Positions 37,601 to 55,264 of a stretch of 64,000 nt of DNA are shown piece after piece. The position numbers and the translations under genes were made by a program. The notes under the pieces are model-generated. The model saw nothing but the letters and a program-made list of their open reading frames with translations. It had not been told where the DNA came from and did not search any database. Source of the stretch: a virus. How positions within the stretch are numbered: the first letter of the stretch is position 1; each line of letters begins with the position of its first letter. The stretch lies in IMG/VR virus record IMGVR_UViG_3300046009_005595, positions 1 to 64,000 of that record, one strand, 5' to 3'.

Positions 37601-40600
37601 GAATATTATGCATCTCTAAATTTATTAGAGCAAAGTGCTACTAATATTCAAATCAGTGATGAATTTGGAAATAACAGATTCAAAAATGGTATTATGACAG
37701 ATGATTTTAGTAGTTATAATATAGCTGATACTACTAATTCAGATTTAGCATGTTCTATCTCACAGGTTAAAAAGAGACTTTTTGCTAGAACTAATGTTCA
37801 GAATTTCCCATTATTTGTTAAGGACTCTCTACTAAGTTTCAGTAGATTGGATGCAACAACATTATCTGGAAAACAATACGCATTACACAATAACAATAAC
37901 ACAACTTATGTTAGTTTACCTTATACAAAAGTTAGTGTTGCTAGACAACCATATGCAACTTCTACTGTAAATATAAATCCATTTATGTTTATTACTAAAG
38001 AAGGTGTTTGTGAACTAAGTCCTCATATGGACAATTGGATTAGTACAACAAAATTACCTGATTTGTTAATTGTAAATCCTAATACCACATTATATTTACA
38101 ATCTAATACTGTTAACTATCTTGCAGATTATCAAACAATATCATCATCTCAAGCTGAAAGTAAAACTTTAGATAAATCTGTATATGCTGTTCCTAGTACT
38201 GCTAGTACTGGGGTTGTTCCAGCAAATATGACTGAGCAACAGATAATTGATTTCATGAATGTTTATGGTGGAGAAAAATATTATACAGTAAATGGGAAGG
38301 ATGTTGAATTATCAGTTGCAAAAACTGCTCCATTAAATTCTCCTTTATCTGCTGCGTATCTATCAACTTTAAGATCTGCTATAAATGTGTTTATTTATAG
38401 AAAATATGCAGTGACTGGGCAATGGTCAGGTATTGGTATTAATGATTTAACAAAAGTAACTACAACCACAACATCAACAACATCAAAAACAGATGTTTGG
38501 GGTATGTGGGAAAGTTTAGGTAATAGTTACCAAACTACAAATGGATACATAACAGATGTATCTATGAATCCTTATATCAGAGCACAACAAATTGAAATAT
38601 CTACTTCTGGTTTATTAGTAAATACTCCTGTTAGTGCGTTTTTTGATAATACTGATGTTACTACTAGATTTAAGCAATCTAATGTTCTTAGAGTTTGGTC
38701 AAATCCAGTAACAGCAAGAGGATTTAAAGTTGGAGATATTATAGCATATTATAATAGTGCTACTACAAGTTTTGTTCCTTTTGCTAAAGTATTAAATCTT
38801 AGTACTAAAACTTCAGTTTCTAATTCTAGTATAATTACAGGTACTAGATTATATCAACAAAATTTAGATTTAGTTTGGGATATAGATGCAACAGTTTATG
38901 TTAAAGATAAATTATTAAATTATGATATCTTTGCTATTTCTTTTAATACATCTGGAGCAGTTACTGGATTGTCAGCAACAGGTGTTTTCATCTCAATAGA
39001 TAAAAAATCTGGAAAATTCTTAGGACAAACAAGTAATACTATTATTATTCCTAATGTTGGAGCAAATACTAGTAATATTATTGGAAAAATATTATATCAA
39101 ATAACAGATAGTTATGAAATTAAATTCCCAATAGTTAATGCGTATGAATCTGGTAACACCATTATCATTACCACAAATGTTAATTTAATGGCTAATACGT
39201 TACAGAATACTGTTTATGATATTAAATCTAATAATTTATCAGGAATGTTGAAAACTGATGAATATGGAAAATTAAGTGGAGTTTTCTATCTACCAGCAGA
39301 TCAATTCCATACAGGAGAAAAATTATTTAGAATTGATAATAGAATTGCAAAGAATATTGGCACAGAAACAACTTTTGCTCAAGGAACATTTTTTGCCACA
39401 AGTTTAAGTACTAAATCTCAGAATTTAGATTTTGCTCCTGATATAAGTTCAGCTAGGAATACTTTAACTAGAACTGAAATTGCTACTAAACAAGTAATAA
39501 CTCAAACTGTTTCTGGTACTGTAACAACAGTAAACTATCATGATCCATTATGTCAAAGTTTCATTTTATATTCTGATGTTACTCCAAATGGAGTATTTGT
39601 AAAATCTTTAAGATTCTTCTTTAAAACAGTACCACAATATGATACTAGCCCTGTTACAGTTTCAATATTAGGCACTACTAATGGATATCCTAATGGAGAT
39701 ACTTTACCATATGCTATTAAAACTTTATCAGTAGATGAAATTAAATATACAGATGCTCCTAATATTGATGATGCATTATCATATACTGAATTTGAATTTG
39801 ATGTTCCTGTTTATATAAAGCCAGATACTATGTATGCTGTTATGGTTAAATCTAATTCTAACGAATATACATTATGGAAAGCTGTATTAGGAGAAACTGC
39901 AATTAGTAGCACAACTCCAGGATTACAAAATATTAGAATTTCATCATCTCCTTATATTGGAAGTTTGTATGAATCTCAAAATGCTATAACATGGACCGCA
40001 AATCAAAATGAAGATTTAATGTTTGATATGATTGGATGTCAATTTGATATAACTAAAAATCCTACTATAGATTTTATAGTACCTGCTGGATTGCCAAAAA
40101 GAAAATTAGTTGATAATTCTTTGGTATATTCTTCAAATTTAACATCTGCTATTGATTCTTCATATTCTGGAATGACTGCAGAAAATGTTTTAGTTAGTTC
40201 ATTCAATGTAACAACAACTGATTTAAGTTTTGATGTAGCTCCTATTTCATATACATATAAAGCAACAAAAGAGTCTACTGGAGCATTGGATTCAGTTCCA
40301 ACTTTAATAACACCAGGAAGATTCGGAACAGCAACACTGAATGATGTTGATTTAGGAGATGGGAATGGTAATAGAATATTATTATCAAGTGCTGCCAATT
40401 CATTTATATTATCGGCTTCTATATCTTCTAGTGATAAATATTTAAGTCCAATTATATCTGAAGCAGGAACTTCACTATATGCTACTCAATATATAATTAA
40501 TAATTTAGAATTTACAAGTTCTAATATTACTATTGCAAATAGTGGAATTGGATATTCTAATAGTTCTATTATATCTGTTAGAAGAACTTCTAACACATCA

Positions 40601-41209
40601 GGAAGTGATACACTTTTAAGTTTAGAAGCAGATGCTAATGGAAAGATTTATAAAATAAATACAATCTTTGTTGGAACTGGATATGCATCTACTCCTGAAA
40701 TTGTTATTACTGATGCTAATAGAGGTGGTAATGCAAATGCAGTATTAACTGTTACCGGAGAAACCTCTTCTATTGGTGGTAATGCAGCTTTAAGATATAT
40801 ATCAAAACCAGTAACTCTACATCCTGGATTTGATGCTGGAGATTTAAGAATATATTTTACTGCATATAGACCAATCAACACAGATGTTTTCATATACTAT
40901 AAAATATTAAATAGAAATGACACACAATTGCTTGTTGATAGTGATTGGCAGTTAATGACATTAATTTCAGGAAGAACTACATATTCTTCTTCTAAAAATG
41001 AATTGATTGAGTATATAGCTGCTCCTGGTATTGATGGTATTCCTAATAACACGGTAACATATACTAGCAAAGCAACTAATAATAGTTATATTTATTTTTA
41101 TCAATTTGCAATTAAGGTAGTTTTAGTATCTAATGATAGTACTATAATTCCTTTCTTAACTGATATTAGAACTATAGCTCTTCCTCCAATGATTCCAACA
41201 GCAGTATAA
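34622..41209 (+). CDS. Giant baseplate/peripheral structural protein, DUF4815-like N-terminus
   Basis: 2195 residues, the largest gene here. The N-terminus, FSNSPYWDDFNTNKNFYRVL followed by FKPGYAVQARELTQLQTIAQ, is the DUF4815-type start of the large structural protein that follows gp8 in T4-like cyanophages. The rest is beta-rich and Ser/Thr/Asn-rich, with EYVNHKRWRMEDITTLEDRI (a coiled segment near 980), and near the end a Gly-rich module (GTGYASTPEIVITDANRGGN, about 2020-2045) shared with the wedge proteins. It probably replaces gp9/gp10/gp11 functions in attaching fibres to the baseplate rim. AAGG precedes the ATG. Confidence 0.75.
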   Translation: MSLNFSNSPYWDDFNTNKNFYRVLFKPGYAVQARELTQLQTIAQSQVTKLGDHIFKNHSVVSGAKCTVNINVNYIKLNDLDPNGFEIIAKDFLNAIINSSDGSVVAKVLNTSEKQIDNLGNLLEPPTLIVSYMSGDNFTSGSSIVVSGSELTATVISEGSIYQPAVGPSSIASITDGVFYINGIFASIQQQTVNINEYSNTPSARIGISIVESIVNSSDDPTLLDPALGSSNFQAPGADRYAINLVLTTKPLTLDQDSNFIELIRIENGVLAKNVVDTQYSVIDDYFAKRSFDTNGDYVSNKFKLTPKANPDTANADSTFIVTVGKGKAYIRGYSVENTGDYNLVVNRARDTASVANKSIYLNYGNHVYCNNVTGFFDFKSYTSVDIHCTPVANTNNTTSQTYSSTIAATAKVRGMQFVFAENYNKANTFVYEMFLTEIQNNVLSDSAANTSANTITFPSYFSDVNNAYVGTYVKIISGENNGDIAQIVSYDGSSRKAYLLGSTNGNFKYLPETNCQFSILFGTKDFESLYNVDDVSKNIKAQIYPTSKVDGLPSGDTILRNAGNQELIYRLENNYIVPDSITGTSYYSWIRYTNQPINVTLSVSGSGVMEFQGGSDGVELSVDKINENFICVVRNPGTGHGLKVGDIFVFQGISSNGIKLAASGGYSGALATITVTGYSDVYVDIFAKVYINNADNTAYIRKSKVLNSANLTSVAISGTQVVPGEVFVDTVNSQVYIANNSFNTASQSLYISDVTKILKIIDTGVDEFGDPRTATSDMIPDPTYDVTRYYTFSNGQGDNFYDHASIKLIPGSPPPVGNILVLLSYYDHTGGDGFFTAGSYTDVRYEDLPSYVGKSSGTLYNLRDCIDFRSRRKNANSEFIIDSNISNPIGIPIDETKFTLQSSYFLGRKDVIVISKDKNISLIQGISDLNPKEPNVPEGAMLLGKLTLEPYTAYLPSDNLFGGASSVSLEYVNHKRWRMEDITTLEDRINRLEYYASLNLLEQSATNIQISDEFGNNRFKNGIMTDDFSSYNIADTTNSDLACSISQVKKRLFARTNVQNFPLFVKDSLLSFSRLDATTLSGKQYALHNNNNTTYVSLPYTKVSVARQPYATSTVNINPFMFITKEGVCELSPHMDNWISTTKLPDLLIVNPNTTLYLQSNTVNYLADYQTISSSQAESKTLDKSVYAVPSTASTGVVPANMTEQQIIDFMNVYGGEKYYTVNGKDVELSVAKTAPLNSPLSAAYLSTLRSAINVFIYRKYAVTGQWSGIGINDLTKVTTTTTSTTSKTDVWGMWESLGNSYQTTNGYITDVSMNPYIRAQQIEISTSGLLVNTPVSAFFDNTDVTTRFKQSNVLRVWSNPVTARGFKVGDIIAYYNSATTSFVPFAKVLNLSTKTSVSNSSIITGTRLYQQNLDLVWDIDATVYVKDKLLNYDIFAISFNTSGAVTGLSATGVFISIDKKSGKFLGQTSNTIIIPNVGANTSNIIGKILYQITDSYEIKFPIVNAYESGNTIIITTNVNLMANTLQNTVYDIKSNNLSGMLKTDEYGKLSGVFYLPADQFHTGEKLFRIDNRIAKNIGTETTFAQGTFFATSLSTKSQNLDFAPDISSARNTLTRTEIATKQVITQTVSGTVTTVNYHDPLCQSFILYSDVTPNGVFVKSLRFFFKTVPQYDTSPVTVSILGTTNGYPNGDTLPYAIKTLSVDEIKYTDAPNIDDALSYTEFEFDVPVYIKPDTMYAVMVKSNSNEYTLWKAVLGETAISSTTPGLQNIRISSSPYIGSLYESQNAITWTANQNEDLMFDMIGCQFDITKNPTIDFIVPAGLPKRKLVDNSLVYSSNLTSAIDSSYSGMTAENVLVSSFNVTTTDLSFDVAPISYTYKATKESTGALDSVPTLITPGRFGTATLNDVDLGDGNGNRILLSSAANSFILSASISSSDKYLSPIISEAGTSLYATQYIINNLEFTSSNITIANSGIGYSNSSIISVRRTSNTSGSDTLLSLEADANGKIYKINTIFVGTGYASTPEIVITDANRGGNANAVLTVTGETSSIGGNAALRYISKPVTLHPGFDAGDLRIYFTAYRPINTDVFIYYKILNRNDTQLLVDSDWQLMTLISGRTTYSSSKNELIEYIAAPGIDGIPNNTVTYTSKATNNSYIYFYQFAIKVVLVSNDSTIIPFLTDIRTIALPPMIPTAV

Positions 41210-41441: not shown

Positions 41442-44400
41442 ATGCCAATCGCACAAATATCTTTAGCCAATACTTTCTCAGAATTTCTTGGAGCTACAGT
41501 AAGTTTAATTACTCAGTCTAATGTTTTAGAAACAGGAGACTATCATAAAACTTCTAATACATTATACTTAGATTCATCTGGTACTGCTCTTTCAGTAGCA
41601 AATAATGCTGCATTCAATGGACAAGTAAATTTCAATGCCTTGGGAACGTCGATAATAATAAATAACGACGCTTTTATTGGAGGAAATATAAATGTATCCA
41701 AACAACTAATCTCTACTATTCCTTATGGAACAGCACCATTTGAAATAACTTCAAATACATTAGTTTATAATTTAAATACTCAATTTTTAAATGGAATTGA
41801 TAGTAATTATTATTTAGAATATACTGCATTTTCGTTTAGGCAAGCTAATGTTGCGTATAATATGACTAACAATGCCTTTATACAGGCTAATGTTGCATAT
41901 AATATGACTAACAATGCCTTTATACAGGCTAATGTTGCATACAATATGTCTAATAGTGCATTTAGACAAGCTAATGTTGCATATAATATGACTAACAATG
42001 CCTTTATACAGGCTAATGTTGCATACAATATGTCTAATAGTGCATTTAGACAAGCTAATGTTGCATATAATATGTCTAATAATGCATTCATGAAAGCTAA
42101 CTCTGCTGGAAACGATGCAGTAAATGCATTCATTCAAGCTAATGTTGCATACAATATGTCTAATAGTGCATTTAGACAAGCTAATGTTGCATACAACATG
42201 TCTAATAATGCATTTATGAAAGCTAACTCTGCTGGAAACGATGCAGTTAACGCATTCATTCAGGCTAATGTTTCATATAATATGTCTAATAGTGCATTTA
42301 GACAAGCTAATGTTGCATACAATATGTCTAATAGCGCATTCGTTCAAGCTAATGTTGCATATAATATGACTAACAATGCATTCATTCAAGCTAATGTTGC
42401 ATATAATATGTCTAATAATGCATTTATGAAAGCTAACTCTGCTGGTAATGATGCAGTTAATGCATTCATTCAAGCTAATGTTGCATATAATATGACTAAC
42501 AATGCATTCATTCAAGCTAATGTTGCATATAATATGTCTAATAATGCATTTATGAAAGCTAACTCTGCTGGAAACGATGCTGTCAATGCATTCATTCAAG
42601 CTAATGTTGCATATAATATGTCTAATAGTGCATTTATTCAAGCTAATGTTGCATATAATATGTCTAATAATGCATTTATGAAAGCTAACTCTGCTGGAAA
42701 CGATGCTGTCAATGCATTTAGACAGGCTAATATTGCTTATAATATGACCAATAATGCATTTGTTCAAGCTAATGTTGCATATTTAAAAGCTAACTCTGCT
42801 GGAAACGATGCTATCAATGCATTTGTTCAAGCTAATGTTGCTTATAATATGACCAATAATGCCTTTATACAGGCTAATGTTGCATACAACATGTCTAATA
42901 GTGCATTTTTACAGGCTAATGTTGCATATAATATGACTAACAATGCATTTATACAGGCTAATGTTGCATACAACATGTCTAATAATGCATTTATGAAAGC
43001 TAACTCTGCTGGAAATGATGCTGTTAACGCATTCAGACAGGCTAATGTTGCGTATAACATGTCTAATAGTGCATTTATGAAAGCTAACTCTGCTGGAAAT
43101 GATGCAGTTAATGCTTTCATTCAAGCTAATGTTGCATATAACATGTCTAATAGTGCATTTATACAGGCTAATGTTGCATATAATATGTCTAATAGTGCAT
43201 TTATTCAAGCTAATGTTGCATACAATATGTCTAATAGTGCATTTATGAAAGCAAATTCTGCTGGGAACGATGCTGTAAATGCGTTCATTCAAGCTAATAC
43301 TGCATATTTAAAAGCTAATTCTGCTGGGAACGATGCTGTTAATGCATTTGTTCAAGCTAATGTTGCATACAATATGTCTAATAGTGCATTTATGAAAGCT
43401 AACTCTGCTGGAAATGATTCTGTTAATGTCTTTATACAGGCTAATGTTGCATACAACATGTCTAATAGTGCATTTTTACAGGCTAATGTTGCATATAATA
43501 TGTCTAATAATGCATTTTTACAGGCTAATGTTGCATATAATATGTCTAATAATGCATTTATGAAAGCTAACTCTGCTGGAAACGATGCTGTTAACGCATT
43601 CATTAGAGCTAATACTGCATACAGTACAGCTAACATTGGTGTTAATAATTCACTATCAGCATTTATACAAGCTAACACTGCGTATAATACAGCTAACATT
43701 GGTGTTAATAATTCACTATCAGCATTTATACAAGCTAATACAGCTTATACTACAGCTAATACTGGAATATTATATTCTCAAGCTGCATTTTTCCAAGCAA
43801 ATAATGTTTCATCTGCTTGGGATGTTGCTAATGCTGCATTCATAGCAGCAAATTCGAATTCAGCTTTTATATATGCCGTAGCTACATTTAACAAAGCTAA
43901 CTCTGCTGGAAATGATGCAGTTAATGCATTTAACAAAGCTAACTCTGCTGGAAATGATGCAGTTAATGCATTTAACAAAGCTAACTCTGCTGGAAATGAT
44001 GCTGTCAATGCATTCATAAAAGCTAATACATCTTATAATACAGCTAACGTTGGTGTTAATAACTCATTATCAGCATTTATACAATCTAATACATCTTATA
44101 ATACAGCTAACGTTGGTGTTAATAACTCATTATCAGCATTTAACAAAGCTAACTCTGCTGGAAATGATGCTGTCAATGCATTCATAAAAGCTAACACTGC
44201 ATACAGTACAGCTAACATTGGTGTTAATAACTCATTATCAGCATTTAACAAAGCTAACTCTGCTGGAAATGATGCAGTTAATGCATTTAACAAAGCTAAC
44301 TCTGCTGGAAATGATGCAGTTAATGCATTTAACAAAGCTAACTCTGCTGGAAATGATGCTGTCAATGCATTCATAAAAGCTAACACTGCATACAGTACAG

Positions 44401-46481
44401 CTAACATTGGTGTTAATAATTCACTATCAGCATTTATACAAGCTAATACATCTTATAATACAGCTAACATTGGTGTTAATAATTCACTATCAGCATTTAT
44501 ACAAGCTAATACATCTTATAATACAGCTAACATTGGTGTTAATAACTCATTATCAGCATTTAACAAAGCTAACTCTGCTGGAAATGATGCTGTCAATGCA
44601 TTTAACAAAGCTAACTCTGCTGGAAATGATGCTGTCAATGCATTCATAAAAGCTAACACTGCATACAGTACAGCTAACATTGGTGTTAATAATTCACTAT
44701 CAGCATTTATACAAGCTAATACTGCATTAAATAATGCATTAGGTGCATTTACACAAGCTAATACCGCATTAAATAATGCATTAGGTGCATTTAATAAAGC
44801 AAACTCTGCTGGTAATGATGCAGTAAATGCCTTTATAAAAGCTAATACAGTAACTAACTATTTACCTCTTTCTGGAGGAAATCTTTCTGGTCAATTAGGT
44901 TCTACAGTAGCTACTGGAACTGCTCCATTCTCAATAGCTTCTACGACATTAGTTACAAACCTTAATGCAGATTTACTTGATGGTATTAGTAGTGGTAGTT
45001 TCTTAAGAAGTGATGCAACTACAACATATAGTGGTGGGATATTAAAAATAAACACACCAGCAGGATTTTCTGGGAACAATATAGGAGAGGTTAATACGCT
45101 TCAATGTTATCAAGCAACTATAGGCACAGATGCTTTCATGACATTCCATATTGCAGGAGATTATGCAGCCCACTTTGGATTAGATGGAATTACTAATGAT
45201 TTGTTTTTCGGTGGTTGGACTGCTGGAGCAAATAAATATAAAATTTGGCATTCGGGAAATGATGGTGTTGGATCAGGATTAGATGCTGATTTACTTGATG
45301 GACAAAGTGGTGCTTATTACACTTCATTAACTGATTCAGCATTTAACAAAGCTAATTCTGCTGGTAATGATGCTATTAATGCATTTAGTAGAGCTAATAC
45401 CTCATTAAATAATGTGTTAGGTGCATTCACTCAAGCTAATACCTCATTAAATAATGTGTTAGGTGCATTCACTCAAGCTAATACTGCATATAATACAGCT
45501 AATACTGGTGTTAATAATTCTTTATCTGGATTTATACAAGCTAATACCTCATTAAATAATGCGTTAGGAGCATTTAACAAAGCAAACTCTGCTGGTAATG
45601 ATGCTGTCAATGCATTTAGTAGAGCTAATACCTCATTAAATAATGCGTTAGGAGCATTTAATCAGGCTAATACCTCATTAAATAATGTGTTAGGTGCATT
45701 CACTCAAGCTAATACTGCATATAATACAGCTAATACTGGTGTTAATAATTCTTTATCTGGATTTATACAAGCTAATACAGCATTAAATAATGCATTAGGT
45801 GCGTTTAACAAAGCAAACTCTGCTGGTAATGATGCTGTCAATGCATTTAGTAGAGCTAATACAGCATATAATACAGCTAATACTGGTGTTAATAATTCTT
45901 TATCTGGATTTATACAAGCTAATACAGCATTAAATAATGCATTAGGGGCATTTAATAAAGCAAACTCTTCTGGTAATGATGCTGTCAATGCATTTAGTAG
46001 AGCTAATACAGCATTAAATAATGCATTAGGGGCATTTAATAAAGCTAATACTGGAGGAGCTATTTTAATAGATGATGCTTCTACAAATAACAACAGACCT
46101 TTAGTTTTCACTAGTAATACAGATGGACAAGTATTTAATTCTGTTTTTATAAACTCAACAGAACTATATACAAATCCTAGTACAGGAACTTTGTATGCTA
46201 CTATATTTTCTTCTCTATCAGATGAATCTCAAAAAGATAATATAACCAAAATAGCTAACTCAACAATTTTGATAAATAGTATTAATCCTGTTTCATTTAA
46301 TTGGAAAAAGACAGGAAAAAAATCATATGGTGTTATTGCTCAAGAGATTGAAAAAATACTACCTGATATAGTTCATGAAAACGATGGTATAAAATCTGTA
46401 GAGTATGATTCTTTGATAGCGTTCTTAATTGGAGCAGTAAAAGAAATGTCTGATAGATTGGACAAATTGGAGAACAAATAA
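41442..46481 (+). CDS. Long tail fibre A: heptad repeats plus S74 chaperone
   Basis: 1679 residues. An N-terminal globular part (1-125) ends with APFEITSNTLVYNLNTQFLN. Residues about 127-1135 and 1300-1540 are tandem units of 14 residues (FIQANVAYNMSNSA, FMKANSAGNDAVNA) and 21 residues (with YNTANIGVNNSLSA), all multiples of seven, as expected of a long alpha-helical coiled coil. A globular insert (about 1140-1295) carries two N/D-ADLLDG fibre motifs. The C-terminus from about 1590 (SDESQKDNI, NWKKTGKKSYGVIAQEIEKI, EYDSLIAFLIGAVKEM) is a peptidase-S74 intramolecular chaperone that trimerises and then cuts itself off. Receptor-facing fibre is the likely role. Confidence 0.88.
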   Translation: MPIAQISLANTFSEFLGATVSLITQSNVLETGDYHKTSNTLYLDSSGTALSVANNAAFNGQVNFNALGTSIIINNDAFIGGNINVSKQLISTIPYGTAPFEITSNTLVYNLNTQFLNGIDSNYYLEYTAFSFRQANVAYNMTNNAFIQANVAYNMTNNAFIQANVAYNMSNSAFRQANVAYNMTNNAFIQANVAYNMSNSAFRQANVAYNMSNNAFMKANSAGNDAVNAFIQANVAYNMSNSAFRQANVAYNMSNNAFMKANSAGNDAVNAFIQANVSYNMSNSAFRQANVAYNMSNSAFVQANVAYNMTNNAFIQANVAYNMSNNAFMKANSAGNDAVNAFIQANVAYNMTNNAFIQANVAYNMSNNAFMKANSAGNDAVNAFIQANVAYNMSNSAFIQANVAYNMSNNAFMKANSAGNDAVNAFRQANIAYNMTNNAFVQANVAYLKANSAGNDAINAFVQANVAYNMTNNAFIQANVAYNMSNSAFLQANVAYNMTNNAFIQANVAYNMSNNAFMKANSAGNDAVNAFRQANVAYNMSNSAFMKANSAGNDAVNAFIQANVAYNMSNSAFIQANVAYNMSNSAFIQANVAYNMSNSAFMKANSAGNDAVNAFIQANTAYLKANSAGNDAVNAFVQANVAYNMSNSAFMKANSAGNDSVNVFIQANVAYNMSNSAFLQANVAYNMSNNAFLQANVAYNMSNNAFMKANSAGNDAVNAFIRANTAYSTANIGVNNSLSAFIQANTAYNTANIGVNNSLSAFIQANTAYTTANTGILYSQAAFFQANNVSSAWDVANAAFIAANSNSAFIYAVATFNKANSAGNDAVNAFNKANSAGNDAVNAFNKANSAGNDAVNAFIKANTSYNTANVGVNNSLSAFIQSNTSYNTANVGVNNSLSAFNKANSAGNDAVNAFIKANTAYSTANIGVNNSLSAFNKANSAGNDAVNAFNKANSAGNDAVNAFNKANSAGNDAVNAFIKANTAYSTANIGVNNSLSAFIQANTSYNTANIGVNNSLSAFIQANTSYNTANIGVNNSLSAFNKANSAGNDAVNAFNKANSAGNDAVNAFIKANTAYSTANIGVNNSLSAFIQANTALNNALGAFTQANTALNNALGAFNKANSAGNDAVNAFIKANTVTNYLPLSGGNLSGQLGSTVATGTAPFSIASTTLVTNLNADLLDGISSGSFLRSDATTTYSGGILKINTPAGFSGNNIGEVNTLQCYQATIGTDAFMTFHIAGDYAAHFGLDGITNDLFFGGWTAGANKYKIWHSGNDGVGSGLDADLLDGQSGAYYTSLTDSAFNKANSAGNDAINAFSRANTSLNNVLGAFTQANTSLNNVLGAFTQANTAYNTANTGVNNSLSGFIQANTSLNNALGAFNKANSAGNDAVNAFSRANTSLNNALGAFNQANTSLNNVLGAFTQANTAYNTANTGVNNSLSGFIQANTALNNALGAFNKANSAGNDAVNAFSRANTAYNTANTGVNNSLSGFIQANTALNNALGAFNKANSSGNDAVNAFSRANTALNNALGAFNKANTGGAILIDDASTNNNRPLVFTSNTDGQVFNSVFINSTELYTNPSTGTLYATIFSSLSDESQKDNITKIANSTILINSINPVSFNWKKTGKKSYGVIAQEIEKILPDIVHENDGIKSVEYDSLIAFLIGAVKEMSDRLDKLENK
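41823..44850 (+). repeat. 42/63-bp tandem repeat array in fibre A
   Basis: Dozens of near-identical in-frame units, 42 bp (two heptads) or 63 bp (three heptads). The core segments AAAGCTAACTCTGCTGGAAA and CAAGCTAATGTTGCATATAA recur throughout, often differing only by synonymous changes. A second block lies at 45340-46050. The same units occur in the fibre genes at 57738 and 63129, so recombination between the genes is easy. Confidence 0.92.
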
Positions 46482-47656
46482 TGTCTGGTTTTAATTCTTC
46501 CATGACTGGAGATTTTGACAAATATTTTATGACAACAACAGATCTTATTGATAGATATGCTATTGGAGGTCTATGGACTTGGGGATCTAATAATAATGGT
46601 CAATTAGGAGATAATTCAACATCTCGTAAAAGTTCTCCAGTCCAAACCGTATCAGCAGGAACTAATTGGAAACAAGTTTCTGCTGGTTTGGAGCATACTG
46701 TTTCTATAAAGACAGATGGTACTTTATGGACTTTTGGATATAATTTTGTTGGTCAATTAGGAGATAACACATCAACAAAGAGAAGTTCTCCAGTCCAAAC
46801 CGTATCAGCAGGAACTAATTGGAAACAAGTATCTGCTCGTTTGTATCAAACAGCATCCATAAAGACTGATGGGACTTTATGGCTTTGGGGAAGTAATTTT
46901 CATGGTGGATTAGGAGATAATACAAGAACTGATAGACTTTCTCCAGTTCAAACTATATCATTTGGAACTAATTGGAAACAAGTTTCTGCTGGAGTATATT
47001 ATACAGCAGCAATAAAAACTGATGGGACTTTATGGCTTTGGGGATTGAATGATAATGGTCAATTAGGAGATAATTCAGTATCAAATAAAAGTTCTCCAGT
47101 TCAAACTATATCATTTGGAACTAATTGGAAACAAGTAGTTTGCGGATCGAGTCATACAGCAGCAATAAAAACTGATGGGACTTTATGGCTTTGGGGAGAT
47201 AATTTATACGGTCAATTAGGAGATAACTCAATATCAGATAAAAGTTCTCCAGTTCAAACTATATCTTTTGGAACTAATTGGAAACAAGTAGTTTGTGGAT
47301 CTACATACACAGCAGCAATAAAGACTGATGGGACTTTATGGCTTTGGGGTAGAGATAATTATGGTCAATTAGGTGATAATTCAGTATCAAATAAAAGTTC
47401 TCCAGTACAAACTATATCAGCTGGAACTAATTGGAAACAAGTATCTTCTGGAGCAGGACATACAGCAGCAATAAAAACAGATGGAACTTTATGGTTGTGG
47501 GGGCTTAATGGATTTGGTCAATTAGGAGATAATTCAATATCAAATAAAAGTTCTCCAGTCCAAACTGTATCAGCAGGAAGTAATTGGAAACAAGTATATT
47601 GTGGGGATAATCACACTACAGCAGTTCAATATTCAGACATAGGACAGGTATTATAA
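46481..47656 (+). CDS. RCC1-type seven-bladed propeller protein A
   Basis: 391 residues: a leader of about 30 residues, then seven RCC1 repeats of about 51 residues, each of pattern L-W-x-W-G-x-N-x-x-G-Q-L-G-D-N ... S-S-P-V-Q-T ... N-W-K-Q-V ... H-T-A-A-I-K-T-D-G-T. Seven blades make a closed beta-propeller. The framework is almost invariant, while short loops (after WG, after GDN, and before the HTAAIK strand) vary. Directly coupled to fibre A by TAATG. Given the neighbourhood, a fibre-tip adhesin or tail-attached receptor-binding protein is likely; no enzymatic motif is seen. Confidence 0.85.
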   Translation: MSGFNSSMTGDFDKYFMTTTDLIDRYAIGGLWTWGSNNNGQLGDNSTSRKSSPVQTVSAGTNWKQVSAGLEHTVSIKTDGTLWTFGYNFVGQLGDNTSTKRSSPVQTVSAGTNWKQVSARLYQTASIKTDGTLWLWGSNFHGGLGDNTRTDRLSPVQTISFGTNWKQVSAGVYYTAAIKTDGTLWLWGLNDNGQLGDNSVSNKSSPVQTISFGTNWKQVVCGSSHTAAIKTDGTLWLWGDNLYGQLGDNSISDKSSPVQTISFGTNWKQVVCGSTYTAAIKTDGTLWLWGRDNYGQLGDNSVSNKSSPVQTISAGTNWKQVSSGAGHTAAIKTDGTLWLWGLNGFGQLGDNSISNKSSPVQTVSAGSNWKQVYCGDNHTTAVQYSDIGQVL

Positions 47657-47658
47657 AA

Positions 47659-48342
47659 ATGGCATATTTAATAGTAGAAAAATTAGAAGATGGTACAAAT
47701 TTAGTTCATCTTGGTCCTATGAATTGGAGACCAACATTCTTTCAAAGTTGTTTAAGAGATGATCTAGAAATAAATTTCAATGTTCCTCTTTCAAACGATT
47801 CTGGGGAAGTTGTTATAGTTTCTGATACAGTTAAAATTATTCCAGTAAGAGATATAGGACTAACTTCAGAATGTAATCAAAAAATTCAAAATATTGTTGG
47901 TCCTTATTATAACTTCTTTGATACATACGCTGAAATGTATCATAATGTACAAAATAAATCTGTAGAAGTAGTTAAATCGGAACTAAAACCTATAATAGCA
48001 GCTAATCGTTACAAATACGAAGTTATGGGTGTTTCTGCTACAATCCAAAATAAAGAAGTTAATCTATTAACAAACAGAGAAGATAGAGCTTTATATTTAC
48101 AGGCATATCAATTAGGAAAAGATAATATAAATTGGAAATTTGGATCTGAATTCTTATCTTTATCTAATTCAGATTTAGGCTTAATTGTTCAGGCCGTAAC
48201 TACTCACATACAATCAGCATTTGATTGGGAAGCTAGTAAATATCAAGAAATTGAGTCAAAACAAACTTTAGAAGAATTAGACTCTGTTAAATTAATATCT
48301 GATAATCCTATATGGGAACCACCAACTCCAGAAATAATTTAA
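47659..48342 (+). CDS. Tail fibre assembly-type protein, DUF4376-like
   Basis: 227 residues. The C-terminal half, KYEVMGVSATIQNKEVNLLT then NWKFGSEFLSLSNSDLGLIV and VTTHIQSAFDWEASKYQEIE, follows the DUF4376 pattern found in tail fibre assembly proteins (a small beta part followed by residue-counting helices). The N-terminal half is a beta-rich segment with VKIIPVRDIGLTSECN. Its place between two RCC1 genes suggests a dedicated chaperone or connector for them. Confidence 0.6.
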   Translation: MAYLIVEKLEDGTNLVHLGPMNWRPTFFQSCLRDDLEINFNVPLSNDSGEVVIVSDTVKIIPVRDIGLTSECNQKIQNIVGPYYNFFDTYAEMYHNVQNKSVEVVKSELKPIIAANRYKYEVMGVSATIQNKEVNLLTNREDRALYLQAYQLGKDNINWKFGSEFLSLSNSDLGLIVQAVTTHIQSAFDWEASKYQEIESKQTLEELDSVKLISDNPIWEPPTPEII

Positions 48343-48354
48343 TTGAGATAAAAA

Positions 48355-49572
48355 ATGTCAGATAGCAATCAACTTATCAGCAACTTTAGAGAAAGTTCTG
48401 CGGAAAATAACGTAGACCTTGGAGTTAAATTTGTTACTAAAGAATATTTAATTGATGTTTATCCTTATTTAAGTGGGTTAGGTAATATACAATTTGCTGG
48501 ATTATGGAATTGGGGTATGAATAATTATGGTCAATTAGGAGATAACACAAGAACAAATAAAAGTTATCCAGTACAAACAATTGCTTGGGGATCTAACTGG
48601 AAACAAGTTTCTTCTTCTAGTCATACAGCAGCAATAAAGACTGATGGCACTCTATGGACTTGGGGTGATAATTTTTATGGTGGATTAGGAGATAATTCAG
48701 TATCAAATAAAAGTTCTCCAGTTCAAACAGTAGCATTTGGTACTAACTGGAAACAAGTTTCTGCTGGTATTCTTCATACAGCAGCAATAAAGACTGATGG
48801 TACTCTATGGACTTGGGGATATAATAATAATGGTCAATTAGGAGATAATTCAGTATCAAATAAAAGTTCTCCAGTTCAAACTATATCTTTTGGTAATAAT
48901 TGGAAACAAGTCGCTTGTGGATATCACACAGCAGCAATAAAGACTGATGGGACTTTATGGCTTTGGGGAGTTAACATATACGGACAATTAGGAGATAACA
49001 CAAGAACAAGTAAAAGTTCTCCAGTACAAACTATATCAGCTGGAACTAATTGGAAACAAGTTACTGTTGGAAGTAACTACACAGCAGCAATAAAGACTGA
49101 TGGGACTTTATGGCTTTGGGGTAGAGATAATTATGGTCAATTAGGTGATAATTCAGTAGCAGATAAAAGTTCTCCAGTACAAACTGTATCAGCTGGAACT
49201 AATTGGAAACAAGTTTCCGCAGGTAAATTTCATACAGCATCTATTAAAACAGATGGGACTTTATGGCTTTGGGGTAGAGATAATTATGGTCAATTAGGTG
49301 ATAATTCAGTATCAAATAAAAGTTCTCCAGTACAAACTGTATCAGCTGGAACTAATTGGAAACAAGTAGCTTGCGGATATCAAACAGCAGCTATTAAAAC
49401 AGATGGAACTTTATGGCTTTGGGGCGATAATACATATGGACAATTAGGAGATAATTCAATAACAAAGAGAAGTTCTCCAGTACAAACAATTGCATTTGGA
49501 ACCAATTGGAAACAAGTATCTTGCGGATCTATAACTACTACATCAGTCCAAGAAATGGGAGATGATTTTTGA
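48355..49572 (+). CDS. RCC1-type seven-bladed propeller protein B
   Basis: 405 residues: about 55 leader residues (with FVTKEYLIDVYPYLSGLG, unlike leader A), then seven RCC1 blades with the same framework as protein A. Blades 5 and 6 both carry WLWGRDNYGQLGDN and are nearly identical in DNA, pointing to recent duplication or gene conversion. The stop overlaps the next gene's TTG start. Probable adhesin, as for protein A. Confidence 0.85.
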   Translation: MSDSNQLISNFRESSAENNVDLGVKFVTKEYLIDVYPYLSGLGNIQFAGLWNWGMNNYGQLGDNTRTNKSYPVQTIAWGSNWKQVSSSSHTAAIKTDGTLWTWGDNFYGGLGDNSVSNKSSPVQTVAFGTNWKQVSAGILHTAAIKTDGTLWTWGYNNNGQLGDNSVSNKSSPVQTISFGNNWKQVACGYHTAAIKTDGTLWLWGVNIYGQLGDNTRTSKSSPVQTISAGTNWKQVTVGSNYTAAIKTDGTLWLWGRDNYGQLGDNSVADKSSPVQTVSAGTNWKQVSAGKFHTASIKTDGTLWLWGRDNYGQLGDNSVSNKSSPVQTVSAGTNWKQVACGYQTAAIKTDGTLWLWGDNTYGQLGDNSITKRSSPVQTIAFGTNWKQVSCGSITTTSVQEMGDDF

Positions 49573-50066
49573 TAAAACTTCTCCAAGCAGATAATTTCTA
49601 CAATCAAACTGATGTAGATCATATATTTAATTGTACAAATAATTTACAATATATAGAAAAAGAACACGGGTTTGAAATAGATCAATTCAATCTAGTAATA
49701 CCAGGATTAGATTCTGTATTTTCTAAATTCGTTGGGGAAGAAGTATATGTTGATGAAGAAAATTCAGGAATATTTAGAAAACCAAATTTAAGAATACATT
49801 TCGAAGGATTTGATTCTATGCAAGAATGGATTTTTATATTAGCATTAGAACCTACAACTTTTAATTTATATCATCATTTAAGTGGAGCAAAAAACGCATT
49901 AGATGAATATAGATTTGATTATAATAATTTATTTGATTGGGATATTCATACTAATATATTATTAGAACCAAATCAAGGAATAATTTTCAGACCTTGGCTA
50001 TTTCATAGTTTAACACATCAACGTTTAGTACAATTATACAGATTAAAAGGAAAAGATAATGGCTAA
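49569..50066 (+). CDS. Putative double-stranded beta-helix protein between RCC1 genes
   Basis: 165 residues with a TTG start overlapping the upstream TGA; GGGAG lies 7 bases before it, which supports the start. MIKLLQADNFYNQTDVDHIF and the C-terminal GIIFRPWLFHSLTHQRLVQL with YRLKG resemble the end of 2-oxoglutarate/Fe(II) oxygenases (second His, then Arg), and small oxygenases of this kind are common near phage tail fibres. A clear H-x-D is not visible, so it may be a non-catalytic relative. If active it might hydroxylate the neighbouring propeller proteins. Confidence 0.45.
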   Translation: MIKLLQADNFYNQTDVDHIFNCTNNLQYIEKEHGFEIDQFNLVIPGLDSVFSKFVGEEVYVDEENSGIFRKPNLRIHFEGFDSMQEWIFILALEPTTFNLYHHLSGAKNALDEYRFDYNNLFDWDIHTNILLEPNQGIIFRPWLFHSLTHQRLVQLYRLKGKDNG

Positions 50067-51213
50067 GATAGGATTTACAATTTCAGATGGCTCTGATCTT
50101 GGGGATTTATTAGTACCAAGAGATATTTTCTCAGAAGGTGGATTGTGGCTTTGTGGTTATAATATTAACGGTCAATTAGGAGATAATACAACAACTAACA
50201 GAAGTTCTCCAGTTCAAACAATTGCTTGGGGAACTAATTGGAAACAAGCTTCTTCTGGAGCAAGCCATACAGCAGCTATTAAGACTGATGGAACTCTATG
50301 GAATTGGGGAGTTAATTTTGGTAATTTAGGAGATAATACAATAACCAGCAGAAGTTCTCCAGTTCAAACAATTACATTCGGAACTAATTGGAAACAAGTT
50401 GATGCTGGAAGTAACTACACAGCAGCAATAAAGACAGATGGAACATTATGGACTTGGGGGGATAATACATACGGACAATTAGGTGATAATTCAACATCTC
50501 GTAAAAGTTCTCCAGTTCAAACAGTAGCATTTGGTAATAATTGGAAACAAGTAGCTTGCGGATATCACACAGCAGCTATTAAAACTGATGGAACCTTATG
50601 GACTTGGGGGTATAATAATAATGGTCAATTAGGTGATAATACAATAACTAATAAAAGTTCTCCAGTTCAAACAGTAGCATTTGGTACTAACTGGAAACAA
50701 GTTTCTGCTGGCAGATATCATACAGCAGCTATTAAAACTGATGGAACCTTATGGACTTGGGGAGATAATATCAGGGGACAATTAGGTGATAATACAACAA
50801 CAGATAAAAGTTCCCCTGTTCAAACTGTAGCATTTGGTACTAACTGGAAACAGGTATCTTGTGGGTATCATACAGCAGCCATTAAAACTAATGGAACCTT
50901 ATGGACTTGGGGAGATAATGGTAACGGTCAATTAGGTGATAATACAAGAACAATAAAAAGTTCCCCTGTTCAAACTATAACATTTGGAACTAACTGGAAA
51001 CAAGTTTCTGCCGGTTATGTGAATACAGCAGCCATTAAAACTGATGGAACATTATGGACTTGGGGAAATAATAGTAGAGGACAATTAGGAGATAATACGG
51101 TAGACTCTAAAAGTTCTCCTGTCCAAACTATAGCTTTTGGGACCAATTGGAAACAAGTCTCAACCTCAGCTATGGCTGGATATAATACTGTAATAGTAAA
51201 AGATGACATGTAA
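50059..51213 (+). CDS. RCC1-type seven-bladed propeller protein C
   Basis: 384 residues: a leader of about 33 residues (TISDGSDLGDLLVPRDIFSE), then seven RCC1 blades. Here most blades use WTWG where A mostly uses WLWG; the second blade lacks two residues (WNWGVNFGNLGD). It overlaps the beta-helix gene by 8 bases. The loops differ from those of A and B, consistent with binding a different surface ligand. Confidence 0.85.
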   Translation: MAKIGFTISDGSDLGDLLVPRDIFSEGGLWLCGYNINGQLGDNTTTNRSSPVQTIAWGTNWKQASSGASHTAAIKTDGTLWNWGVNFGNLGDNTITSRSSPVQTITFGTNWKQVDAGSNYTAAIKTDGTLWTWGDNTYGQLGDNSTSRKSSPVQTVAFGNNWKQVACGYHTAAIKTDGTLWTWGYNNNGQLGDNTITNKSSPVQTVAFGTNWKQVSAGRYHTAAIKTDGTLWTWGDNIRGQLGDNTTTDKSSPVQTVAFGTNWKQVSCGYHTAAIKTNGTLWTWGDNGNGQLGDNTRTIKSSPVQTITFGTNWKQVSAGYVNTAAIKTDGTLWTWGNNSRGQLGDNTVDSKSSPVQTIAFGTNWKQVSTSAMAGYNTVIVKDDM

Positions 51214-51256: not shown

Positions 51257-52036
51257 ATGAACAAAAAATACTATTTTATTTCAGGGTTGCCTCGTTCAGG
51301 AACAACCCTTCTTTCTGCAATCCTTAATCAAAACCCTAAATTTCAAGCATCTATTTCTGGTCCTTTAGCTAGATTTACTAGAGCTATAATAGAACAATCT
51401 TCAGCTATGTCTGGTTATAGGCATCAATGTCCTCCAGACAAACGCAAAAAAATTATTGAAGGTATATTTGATAATTATTATGATACTCCAAATAAAAAAG
51501 TCTTTTTCGATACTAATAGAGGATGGGGATTACTAACTCCATTTTTAAAAGACATTTATCCTTATACAAAAATTATCATGTGTGTAAGAGATTTAAATTG
51601 GGTTCTTGATTCTTTTGAAACTTTATACAGAAAAAATCCATATGATAAATCTCTTATGATTCCTGATGAATTTGCATCTACGGTTTACTCTAGATGTGAT
51701 TATCTAATGAGAGAAGATTCTACAGTAGGGTTCGCTTATCTATCTCTAAAACAAGCTATAACTTCAGAAGAAAAAAATATGATTATGTTAGTTGAATATG
51801 AACAGCTTTGTAAAAATCCAGAAGGTATGATGAAAGCAATATATAATTTCATAAATCAACCGTATTATCAACATGATTTTAATAATGTAGAATCATCTCA
51901 TGATGAATTTGATGCAGATGTTAATATAAAAGGTTTACATACAACCAGAAAAGAAGTTAAATGGATAGAACGTCAAATGATATTACCTCCAGACATTCAA
52001 CATAAATTTAAAGACCTAGAAGTTTGGCGATATTAA
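51257..52036 (+). CDS. Sulfotransferase (PAPS-dependent family)
   Basis: 259 residues. The 5'-phosphosulfate-binding loop GLPRSGTTLLSAIL is at about 9-22, and the 3'-phosphate-binding strand IIMCVRDLNWVLDSFETLY is near 112-130 (the R-D...S pattern). These are the defining motifs of P-loop sulfotransferases. It would move sulfate from PAPS to a hydroxyl group of a glycan, lipid or protein. First gene of a late cassette; the next ATG follows its stop directly. Acceptor unknown. Confidence 0.85.
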   Translation: MNKKYYFISGLPRSGTTLLSAILNQNPKFQASISGPLARFTRAIIEQSSAMSGYRHQCPPDKRKKIIEGIFDNYYDTPNKKVFFDTNRGWGLLTPFLKDIYPYTKIIMCVRDLNWVLDSFETLYRKNPYDKSLMIPDEFASTVYSRCDYLMREDSTVGFAYLSLKQAITSEEKNMIMLVEYEQLCKNPEGMMKAIYNFINQPYYQHDFNNVESSHDEFDADVNIKGLHTTRKEVKWIERQMILPPDIQHKFKDLEVWRY

Positions 52037-52399
52037 ATGAAAGAATGTGGGGAATGTACAGCTTGTTGTGACGGCTGGTTAATTTCAAATTCATATGGGA
52101 ATAAGTTTGGTAATGGAATACCTTGCTTATTTTTATGCAATAAAAAATGTTCCATATATACTACAAGACCTGAAACTTGTTCAAAATATCAATGTGCATG
52201 GAGTCAAGGATTATTTCCAGATTGGATGAAACCAACTGAAAGTAAGGTTCTTATATCAGTTGAAATTGATTTAAATAAAAAACAATTTCTAAAAGTTATA
52301 CAGATGGAAAATCATATAGAACAAGCTATTATAGATTTTATTGAAAATTGGGTTAAAGAAAATAATACATATTATATAATACAAGGTGATACAAAATGA
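52037..52399 (+). CDS. YkgJ-type cysteine-cluster protein
   Basis: 120 residues. The N-terminal MKECGECTACCDGW (C-x2-C-x2-CC), then IPCLFLCNKKCSIYTTRP and TCSKYQCAW, give ten cysteines in the YkgJ pattern, a zinc- or iron-sulfur-binding domain whose members often stand beside modification enzymes. It starts right after the sulfotransferase stop and overlaps the methyltransferase gene (ATGA), so it probably works with them. Confidence 0.78.
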   Translation: MKECGECTACCDGWLISNSYGNKFGNGIPCLFLCNKKCSIYTTRPETCSKYQCAWSQGLFPDWMKPTESKVLISVEIDLNKKQFLKVIQMENHIEQAIIDFIENWVKENNTYYIIQGDTK

Positions 52400-52947
52400 A
52401 AATTAATATTGGTGGTGGTTTAAAAAGATTTGATGGATTTTTAAATGTAGATTCTGATGAATTAACCAATCCAGACTTTTTGGTAAACTTAAATAAAGAT
52501 AAATTACCATTCGAAGATAATTCAGTAGAAGAAATTAAAGCTCATCATATTCTAGAGCACATTGGAGATGGATTTTTATCTCTTATGCAAGAAATTTATA
52601 GAGTATGTAAAGATGGGGCTATTATTGATATTGAAGTCCCTCATCATAGACACGAAAACTATTTTGGAGATCCTACTCACGTTAGACCAATAACAGTTGA
52701 AATGTTTAAGAAATTCAGTAAGAAATATAACCGTTGGCATATTGACACATATGGTTCAGCTTCTGGGTTCGGGCTTACTTTAAATGTTGATTTTGAAGTA
52801 TTAGAATTTGATTATATTATAGAAAATAGATATCTTCCTCTAGTAGAACAAGGAAGGTTTGAAGAAATTCAAGAAATTTCAGAAAGATTTAATAATGTTT
52901 ATAGTGATACTAAAATCAAATTAGTTGTGGTGAAAGATGACAACTAA
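52396..52947 (+). CDS. SAM-dependent methyltransferase (class I)
   Basis: 183 residues. MKINIGGGLKRFDGFLNVDS gives the Gly-rich motif I and acidic end of strand 2; LPFEDNSVEEIKAHHILEHI is the motif resembling methyltransf_11-type enzymes; EIYRVCKDGAIIDIEVPHH is the following strand. Such enzymes in glycan clusters methylate sugars or act on lipids. It overlaps the YkgJ-type and the TPR-glycosyltransferase genes, so the three are translationally coupled. Confidence 0.82.
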   Translation: MKINIGGGLKRFDGFLNVDSDELTNPDFLVNLNKDKLPFEDNSVEEIKAHHILEHIGDGFLSLMQEIYRVCKDGAIIDIEVPHHRHENYFGDPTHVRPITVEMFKKFSKKYNRWHIDTYGSASGFGLTLNVDFEVLEFDYIIENRYLPLVEQGRFEEIQEISERFNNVYSDTKIKLVVVKDDN

Positions 52948-54364
52948 AATGGGAATTTCTGATTTAGAACCAATAATTTTAACATTAGAAAGATTAAAGA
53001 AAAAAGAATTAGCTGTTGAAATTTTGGAAACATTTTCTAAAGTTTCTAGATCATATGATGAATATGATAATATTGCTAAATGTTTCTTTAGATTAAAAGA
53101 TTATAATTCTTCTATAGAATATGGTTTGAAAGCTTTAGTATTAGCTCCAGATAGTCAGCGTTTATATTTTGCTAGGGAAAATTTAATTAATGTATACCAA
53201 CATGCAAATTATCCAGAAATAGCTTTAAAATATATTGAACAAAACGAACATGTCATTCCAAATAATGTAGACAATTTATTAGCTAAAGCATATTCATTTT
53301 ATCTATTAACTAGAAGAGATGAAGCAGAAGAAATTTTACAAAATTTATTATCAAATTTTGAATTATCTGAAGAAATAGAAACTAAAGTTAAATTTAATCT
53401 AGGTACTTATTATCTATATAGAGATGAATTTCAAAAAGGATTAAGATTATTCTTAGAACAAGGGGCTAAGATGAAGGTTTGGAATACTGAATCTATTTTT
53501 GCTAGAAATAATAATTTAAATCTAGAAACATTTAATAATAAAATAAAAGCTCAGTCTTTTAAAAAGTGGGATGGAATTATAAGACCTGGTAAATCTATTA
53601 TAGTTCATGCTGAAGCTGGGATAGGCGATGAAATAATTAATTTTAGATTTATGAAAACTCTTACTGATTTAGGAATGATTCCTTATTGGTATAATTCCTA
53701 TCCAGAAAGATCTGATATATTAAAAGTTTTTGAACGACAAGGATTTAATGTAATAAGAAAATTATCTGAAGTTTCAGATTCTGATGTATATTATACTCAA
53801 TCTATGCATTTACCAATAGATCTAAATTTAGAATATAAAGATTTATGGTATGGACCTTATATTAAAGCAGATGAATCATATATAGAAAAATGGAGTTATA
53901 TAAAAACTAGCGAAAAATTAAAGATTGGAATTAGATGGCAAGGAAATCCTTTCTATGATAATGATTTACATAGATCAGTTGATTTAAAGGGAATTTATGA
54001 ATCTTTAAAACATATAGACGCAGATTTTTATTCATTACAAAAGGATAATGGTTTAGAAGAATTATCAGATTTCCATGGACTTATTGATCTTGGGGATAAA
54101 TTAAATTCATGGGAAGATACACTAGCTGTAATAGAAAATTTAGATCTTGTAATAACAAGCTGCACTTCAGTAGCTCATGCTTCTGCTGCTATGGGTAAAA
54201 GGACTTGCATTTTTGTACCTATTTCTGCTTATTATGTTTGGTCTCATTCTATGGAAAAATCTCCTTGGTATGGTGATAATGTATTTTTATTCAGACAAGA
54301 ATCTCCTAGAACTTGGAAAGAACCATTAGAAAAATTAAAGAAATCTTTATTTAATATAATCTAA
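52937..54364 (+). CDS. TPR-glycosyltransferase, heptosyltransferase-like GT-B
   Basis: 475 residues. The first about 200 residues are TPR-like helical repeats (ALVLAPDSQRLYFARENLIN, AKAYSFYLLTRRDEAEEILQ). From about 210, a GT-B domain: SIIVHAEAGIGDEIINFRFM, KLKIGIRWQGNPFYDNDLHR, LDLVITSCTSVAHASAAMGK and SPWYGDNVFLFRQ with a Trp near the end, the pattern of GT9 heptosyltransferase-like and bacterial TPR-GT proteins. TPR-linked transferases usually modify proteins, so the fibre proteins around it are plausible acceptors. It converges with the HldD-like gene with an 18-base overlap at the 3' ends. Confidence 0.78.
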   Translation: MTTKMGISDLEPIILTLERLKKKELAVEILETFSKVSRSYDEYDNIAKCFFRLKDYNSSIEYGLKALVLAPDSQRLYFARENLINVYQHANYPEIALKYIEQNEHVIPNNVDNLLAKAYSFYLLTRRDEAEEILQNLLSNFELSEEIETKVKFNLGTYYLYRDEFQKGLRLFLEQGAKMKVWNTESIFARNNNLNLETFNNKIKAQSFKKWDGIIRPGKSIIVHAEAGIGDEIINFRFMKTLTDLGMIPYWYNSYPERSDILKVFERQGFNVIRKLSEVSDSDVYYTQSMHLPIDLNLEYKDLWYGPYIKADESYIEKWSYIKTSEKLKIGIRWQGNPFYDNDLHRSVDLKGIYESLKHIDADFYSLQKDNGLEELSDFHGLIDLGDKLNSWEDTLAVIENLDLVITSCTSVAHASAAMGKRTCIFVPISAYYVWSHSMEKSPWYGDNVFLFRQESPRTWKEPLEKLKKSLFNII

Positions 54365-55204
54365 AATAGCACAAGAATATTTCTGATAATGTTCTTTTAA
54401 ATTTTCTGGCATAGGAATCCATTCAATATATTGTTCTGAATTTTCTATGCCATTTTTTATACAAACTTCTTTTGCTACATCATAAAAAGATTTGGTAGTT
54501 CCAGTACCAACATCATATATGCCAGAATTATGTTCTTTTATTAATTTCAATTTCGTATTAATAACATCTTCTACAGATATAAAATCTCTATAATATTCTT
54601 TAGAACCTTCAAATAATTTTATTTTTCCATATTCATTTAATTGATTTGTAAATTTATGATATGGACTAGATTGATTTCCTTTATGATTTTCATTTGGACC
54701 ATATACATTGAAATATCTTAATCCTTGTAAAAGTTTAGGAGGTTTTCTGGATTTAATGACTAAATCTGCAACATAATCTACTTGTTGTTTTGATTTTGCA
54801 TATAAATTTAACGGATTAGTTTCTTTATTTGGATTATTCCATTCTTCTTTTGAAGGGTTTCCATACACAGAAGCTGAAGATGCATATTGCAATGGTATAT
54901 TATTATTTCTGCAATAATATATTAAATCCCATGAACAATTTACGTTTTTATGAAATAAAGATTTCCAATCAGTTTCTGTTGTTGATGATATTGCCCCTTC
55001 GTGAAATATTATTTGAGTTTCCTTACAATATCTATCTATATCATTATAAAAAACATCTGCTGGTGTAAATAAAATATTATGTTTAATAATATAATCTCTT
55101 TGTTGATAATCCACAGCTAATATATCAGTTTCTCCTGATTCTATCAAACTTTTTATTAAATTTGATCCGATAAAACCACAAGCTCCAGTAACAATTATTT
55201 TCAT
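54347..55204 (-). CDS. hldD: ADP-heptose 6-epimerase-like NAD(P) epimerase
   Basis: 285 residues from the ATG at 55204 (GAGG nearby); the upstream in-frame start is rejected because conserved sequence begins at MKIIVTGACGFIGSN. Features of HldD/RfaD: FHEGAISSTTETDWK, ASSASVYG, YAKSKQQVD (Y-x3-K), LRYFNVYGPNENHKGNQSS, LFEGSKEYYRDFISVEDVIN, GIYDVGTGTTKSF and IEWIPMPENLKEHYQKYS. HldD makes ADP-L-glycero-D-manno-heptose for LPS core or protein heptosylation. It ends about 25 residues before the usual C-terminus of HldD (310 in E. coli), and its 3' end overlaps the TPR-glycosyltransferase. Confidence 0.85.
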   Translation of the reverse strand: MKIIVTGACGFIGSNLIKSLIESGETDILAVDYQQRDYIIKHNILFTPADVFYNDIDRYCKETQIIFHEGAISSTTETDWKSLFHKNVNCSWDLIYYCRNNNIPLQYASSASVYGNPSKEEWNNPNKETNPLNLYAKSKQQVDYVADLVIKSRKPPKLLQGLRYFNVYGPNENHKGNQSSPYHKFTNQLNEYGKIKLFEGSKEYYRDFISVEDVINTKLKLIKEHNSGIYDVGTGTTKSFYDVAKEVCIKNGIENSEQYIEWIPMPENLKEHYQKYSCAILDYIK

Positions 55205-55221
55205 ATTAACCTCAATATTTT

Positions 55222-55229
55222 TATAAATA
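55222..55229 (+). promoter_or_regulatory. T4-type late promoter before the 55265 gene
   Basis: TATAAATA 36 bases upstream of the ATG at 55265, in the divergent gap with the hldD-like gene. ACAGGGTT near the ATG may serve as ribosome binding site. Confidence 0.68.
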
Positions 55230-55264
55230 TAGTATATAAATTTATTTATCACACAGGGTTACTC

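Follow-up and report, generated by a model that had tools for sequence, protein, structure and literature searches.

The window analysed here, a 64,000-nucleotide stretch (positions 1 to 64,000) of the 135,688-base virus record IMGVR_UViG_3300046009_005595, harbours three intact and co-oriented open reading frames (ORFs), namely, RCC_A, RCC_B, and RCC_C, each coding for a short leader and, behind it, a seven-bladed RCC1 propeller. The products of these genes are probably receptor-binding heads (adhesins) that co-exist on the tail fibre or baseplate, recombine their blades, and vary on one face. The presence of the proteins in the virion, the docking through their leaders, the binding of a receptor, and the nature of that receptor are what we infer for this lineage. 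Phage RCC1 proteins are widespread, often occur in several copies, and are labelled 'DNA condensation'. Here, fixed leaders, homogenised blades, a hypervariable face, and the fusion of propellers into a fibre point to a specific and testable role as host-recognition heads.

RCC_A (46481-47656, plus strand, 391 amino acids (aa)) was recognised by means of Pfam, the blade cut, and the slot leader consensus, and RCC_B (48355-49572, plus strand, 405 aa) and RCC_C (50059-51213, plus strand, 384 aa) by Pfam and comparison with sister phages. Pfam RCC1 matches each protein in seven stretches (E-values of 4e-77, 3e-74, and 3e-73), and each polypeptide carries seven repeats of the PF00415 (RLD fold) type above the curated cut-off. 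A search of the whole record at that cut-off returned 21 blades, all within 46565-51168, and none elsewhere in the 135.7 kb. The blades measure 50-51 aa and share a near-constant framework, in agreement with an earlier note, made from the sequence alone, that had described three propellers of exactly seven blades each. The note had also remarked that each gene has a different leader. The leaders are about 30, 49, and 28 aa long in RCC_A, RCC_B, and RCC_C, respectively, with consensus types GDxxxxFxTxxxLIDxY, DLGxxxVTKeYLIDVYP, and DDlFVprdxFxxGG, and we can add that each is conserved per slot across phages. Blades 5 and 6 of RCC_B, already singled out as near-identical, share 91% DNA identity, but the closest pair is A6/B6, with 93%; as the latter lies in two genes, blade exchange must also cross genes. 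The best PDB match is UVR8 (profile E-value of 2e-90), with sequence similarity over nearly the full length.

The three genes belong to a conserved module. The comparison covered 55 distinct loci, a few of them near-duplicates. About 50 related contigs and the isolate Synechococcus phage S-SRM01 (NC_070963) share the order S74 fibre, RCC_A, DUF4376 gene, RCC_B, helper(s), RCC_C, and sulfotransferase, with single genes inserted or moved within it in some lineages. Most of these relatives are metagenome viral contigs. In S-SRM01, the three slots are occupied by gp335, gp337, and gp344, with matching leader types, a DUF4376-like gene between the first two slots, and a sulfotransferase after the third; the RCC_B proteins are only about 56% identical, however, and other genes are inserted in its tail module. 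The S-SRM01 genome paper does not discuss these three proteins. The slot-B leader was not found in phage isolates other than S-SRM01. Slot leaders were not found on non-RCC1 proteins in the loci of the relatives either, which is a weak test, the leader profile containing five blade residues. Among 148 complete slot ORFs, the number of blades is a multiple of seven in 135 (7 in 127 ORFs, 14 in three, 21 in three, 28 in one, and 42 in one), so that seven blades would be the retained unit, as expected of closed propellers. In one relative (L089, 1009-13855), slot A has 28 blades and slot B 42, in single ORFs corresponding to four and six tandem propellers. The earlier note had envisaged a switchable or combined set of three propellers; the conserved three-slot order and the slot-specific leaders favour a combined set, while nothing was found in support of a switchable one. 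Switching by inversion was rejected, the ORFs being intact and co-oriented and the sole inverted repeat found being an 18-nt pair at 89%.

Leaders and propellers follow different histories. Between phages, leaders share 41.8% identity when they come from the same slot and 28.9% when they come from different slots, whereas propellers are as similar in one case as in the other (57.7% vs 57.4%). Within one phage, the propellers of different slots reach 66.8% identity. The slot effect on leaders (12.9 identity points) and the phage effect on propellers (9.4 points) were each equalled in none of 1000 label shuffles; the phage effect on leaders is not significant (111 of 1000 shuffles), and the slot effect on propellers is real yet tiny (0.28 points). 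In 45 of 46 phages, one and the same residue occupies blade column 25 in 90% or more of the blades, namely, Q in 24 phages, T in 20, and R in one. In the isolate S-SRM01, the propellers of slots B and C share 73% with each other, compared with a mean of 61% with their orthologs. The three propeller genes of each phage undergo concerted evolution.

Sister phages were compared next. In one sister (L107), most neighbouring genes are 96-99% identical to those of the window at the amino acid level (90% for a small 120-aa gene) and the leaders are almost unchanged, whereas the propeller proteins B and C are only 74% and 84% identical. Over nine sister pairs, of which three come from a single trio, amino acid identity is 95% for flanks, 93% for leaders, and 72% for propellers, with differences at 17%, 20%, and 37% of 4-fold sites, respectively. 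For 210 of the 266 blades in these pairs, the positional ortholog is less similar in DNA sequence than some other blade of the same genome. In the near-twins L015 and L069, 1% of the 4-fold sites of the flanks differ; their leaders and C-terminal ends agree at almost every codon, while much of the middle has been replaced. In six sister comparisons, most of the new 21-mers occur nowhere in the sample; the donors are therefore mainly unsampled, and exchange with unsampled phages must add to exchange within the genome. In RCC_B of L069 (2890-4374), one blade loop contains about 85 inserted aa, indicating that the loops tolerate whole inserted domains.

Within the blades, change is concentrated in the loops. 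The non-synonymous fraction in close pairs is 0.61-0.80 at loop columns 3, 6, 8, 9, 17-19, and 40-42, whereas it is close to zero in the core framework, although 36% of 4-fold sites differ blade-wide. In a set of 115 blade pairs from 34 phages, all recently related, 60% of loop codons differ non-synonymously vs 2.7% synonymously (808 vs 36), a ratio that is not a formal dN/dS since the pairs were picked for low 4-fold divergence, which lowers synonymous counts. Two- or three-base replacements account for 63% of these loop changes, and segmental exchange combined with selection for difference would fit this pattern better than stepwise drift. Fast and localised variation between close relatives, as expected of an adhesin, is thus found. 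The earlier note had named uniform rather than loop-focused variation as the outcome that would count against its proposal. Uniform variation was not what the relatives showed, and their comparison gives good support to the propellers that it had pictured, with loop-focused variation and gene conversion, the binding of a receptor remaining the inferred part.

The variable columns coincide with a known protein-binding surface. The best solved relatives of the propellers are UVR8 structures, in which the residues E43, D44, D96, D107, R146, E182, R234, R286, R338, W233, W285, and W337 are involved in the dimer (PMC5091643). The columns to which these residues map (6, 8, 9, 19, 40, and 41) are precisely the six with the highest variability in the phage blades; none of 200,000 random column sets reached their mean variability. 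The variable positions should therefore share one protein-binding face, as judged from this alignment. UVR8 and other eukaryotic RCC1-like propellers have the seven-bladed RCC1 fold that is expected of the phage proteins from their sequence, but in UVR8 the face serves homodimer formation and light sensing, whereas in the phage these columns vary and the conserved GWRHT motif is absent from them.

A link with a tail fibre is provided by a relative (L045), in which the 2445-aa product of the ORF at the fibre position has four propellers of seven blades each, separated by collagen-like stretches, and ends with an S74 domain. An adhesin gene should lie in the tail-fibre module, or relatives should have it fused to fibre parts, and both situations are encountered here. 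We can propose that each protein docks through a short N-terminal leader specific to its slot, behind which comes a seven-bladed propeller that its last strands close; one face would be the binding surface, made of seven repeats of the six hypervariable columns. The heads would diversify as blades recombine homologously, inside each of the three genes of a phage and from one gene to another, which would homogenise the framework, and also by exchange with other phages; the conserved leader and C-terminal ends would bound the exchange, and selection for loop change would then act on the recombined blades.

Comparable proteins have been reported in coliphages. 121Q, PBECO4, and phAPEC6 (Asteriusvirus), as well as W70 (Vequintavirinae), possess several RCC1-like proteins of seven-blade size, with one short leader per phage group (MLPFxRMxxYGN or MLEMxNL). 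These arrays differ from the genes of the window by their degenerate repeats, by a leader that is common to all members instead of slot-specific, and by their annotation as DNA condensation proteins. Virion mass spectrometry detected three RCC1 proteins in W70 (PMC11370258) and one in GAP32 (PMC5259590), and the function of prokaryotic RCC1 proteins has been described as unknown (PMC7247149). In 121Q, gene 243 (L117, 4426-5163) codes for a glycine-rich protein without RCC1 repeats, which carries the MLPFGRMVKYGN leader (MLPFxRMxxYGN type) of the adjoining RCC1 array; this shared leader suggests a common dock for exchangeable heads in jumbo coliphages. A functional analogue with a constant scaffold and hypervariable loops is gp38, the adhesin at the tail-fibre tip of T-even phages (S16, PP01), which is exchangeable between phages (PMC12892980). 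However, gp38 has a polyglycine sandwich fold and is present once per fibre, being neither a propeller nor a member of a three-gene concerted family.

Several points weigh against a role as adhesins. The virion mass spectrometry comes from relatives, and the variation could reflect interaction with something other than a host receptor. The grouping of the variable positions on a single face would depend on the alignment with UVR8, as the AlphaFold (AF2) model of RCC_B is poor (pLDDT of 47). In W70, moreover, the RCC1 genes are located apart from the tail-fibre genes, and those of W70 and A5-4 are 96-100% identical, hypervariation not being seen between them. Among the alternatives, a DNA-condensing or inner-body role inside the virion has been put forward for the RCC1 proteins of phAPEC6 and W70, which were proposed to order or pack DNA (PMC7247149; PMC11370258), and it agrees with their detection in coliphage virions. 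For the genes studied here, we consider such a role very improbable in view of their conserved position beside the tail fibre, the propellers fused into the collagen-like/S74 fibre of L045, the coincidence of the variable columns with a protein-binding face, and the 121Q leader that also heads a glycine-rich, non-RCC1 protein; besides, so fast a change from sister to sister is unexpected for a DNA-packing protein. The evidence speaks against the DNA-condensation label for this lineage.

It is unlikely, if somewhat less so, that the propellers are exposed decorations or fibre-joint parts (whiskers, binders of environmental glycans, or fibre-fibre contacts), which would not set host choice and would vary through co-evolution with other fibre parts. 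An exposed position on the virion would explain the fibre fusion and the gene context equally well, but diversifying change on one face in three proteins at once, with fixed neighbours and leaders, fits host recognition better. Some RCC1-type propellers are soluble and inhibit other proteins, and diversified loops would also be consistent with an arms race against variable host proteins. That the genes encode BLIP-II-like inhibitors or counter-defence proteins acting in or around the infected cell, and merely lie beside tail genes, is nonetheless hardly to be expected given the fusion into the L045 tail fibre, the slot-specific leaders, the late tail-operon position, and the virion detection of the coliphage relatives (PMC11370258; PMC5259590). 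Finally, the mosaic pattern might stem from mixed-strain assembly of repeats or from neutral repeat turnover, as repeats invite unequal exchange and chimeric assembly and most comparisons rely on metagenome contigs. This explanation appears highly implausible: the frames are open, the blade numbers fall in multiples of seven (135 of 148), non-synonymous loop changes far outnumber synonymous ones (808 vs 36), the flanks and leaders of the same contigs are not scrambled, and an isolate, S-SRM01, has the same architecture, its B and C propellers being more similar to each other than, on average, to their orthologs (73% vs 61%).

If the propellers are receptor-binding heads, they would be a clear example from nature of a receptor-binding scaffold diversified by the recombination of repeats and not by a retroelement. 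Phage receptor-binding proteins diversified by diversity-generating retroelements (DGRs) likewise combine a constant scaffold with a targeted variable surface (PMC10743442). The genes of the window differ in that their variable codons do not conform to a single template type and that the donors are other blades and other phages. No RVT_1 match was obtained in the record, which may be incomplete and in which a template repeat was not separately searched for; a DGR was discarded as the diversifier in the absence of a reverse transcriptase match. More tentative, with the balance leaning against it, is the broader proposal that the 21 interchangeable blades form a single recombining pool, diversified without reverse transcriptase, by which a face of 42 positions (six columns in each of seven blades) is re-assorted in three heads with fixed docking leaders, and that phage RCC1 'DNA condensation' genes are mostly such heads.

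With regard to the genes located between the propellers, the product of the first (47659-48342, plus strand, 227 aa) is a tail-fibre-type helper, identified by matches to PF14301 (E-value of 5e-7) and to phrog_10508, annotated tail fiber (E-value of 5e-13), and by synteny; the earlier assignment to DUF4376 was right, and in relatives the gene is always found between slots A and B. The second (49569-50066, plus strand, 165 aa) had been taken for beta-helix-like. Its AlphaFold model is confident (pLDDT of 91.6), and the best PDB matches retrieved by Foldseek are 2-oxoglutarate (2OG)-Fe(II) oxygenases (probability of 1.00, TM of about 0.5), a fold that rules out a beta-helix. An alignment showed that H77-x-E79 and H146 of the HxE...H motif are kept in most of 11 relatives. 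The predicted protein thus combines the double-stranded beta-helix (jelly-roll) fold with the HxD/E...H ligands of 2OG-Fe(II) oxygenases, and the model identifies it as a jelly roll of this type, which might act as a hydroxylase modifying the fibre, the propeller, or a glycan. It is located between two propeller genes in many relatives.

Upstream of the propeller genes, T4-type baseplate wedge genes are followed by a very large protein (34622-41209), whose PHROG matches are to families of unknown function, and then, directly before RCC_A, by the long tail fibre with a C-terminal Peptidase_S74 chaperone (41442-46481, plus strand; PF13884, E-value of 1e-11, and tail fibre PHROGs). Downstream, the conserved block is closed by a sulfotransferase (51257-52036, plus strand; PF13469, E-value of 4e-17, and synteny). 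The genes conserved after the propellers (51257-55252) comprise this sulfotransferase, a cysteine-rich 120-aa protein, a methyltransferase-like protein, a TPR protein, and, on the minus strand, a nucleotide-sugar epimerase-like protein. They look like a surface-glycan modification cluster within the tail module, to which the sulfotransferase possibly belongs. No psbA was found in the record, and a cyanobacterial host is consequently suggested by S-SRM01 alone. A 456-aa protein made of short repeats of the KIKYDTSIINDSK type, without a convincing family match, is encoded at 55873-57243. The propeller and glycan block is bracketed by two very long fibre proteins (41442-46481 and 57738-63092; 1679 and 1784 aa), which share NAFxQANxAYN-type repeats.

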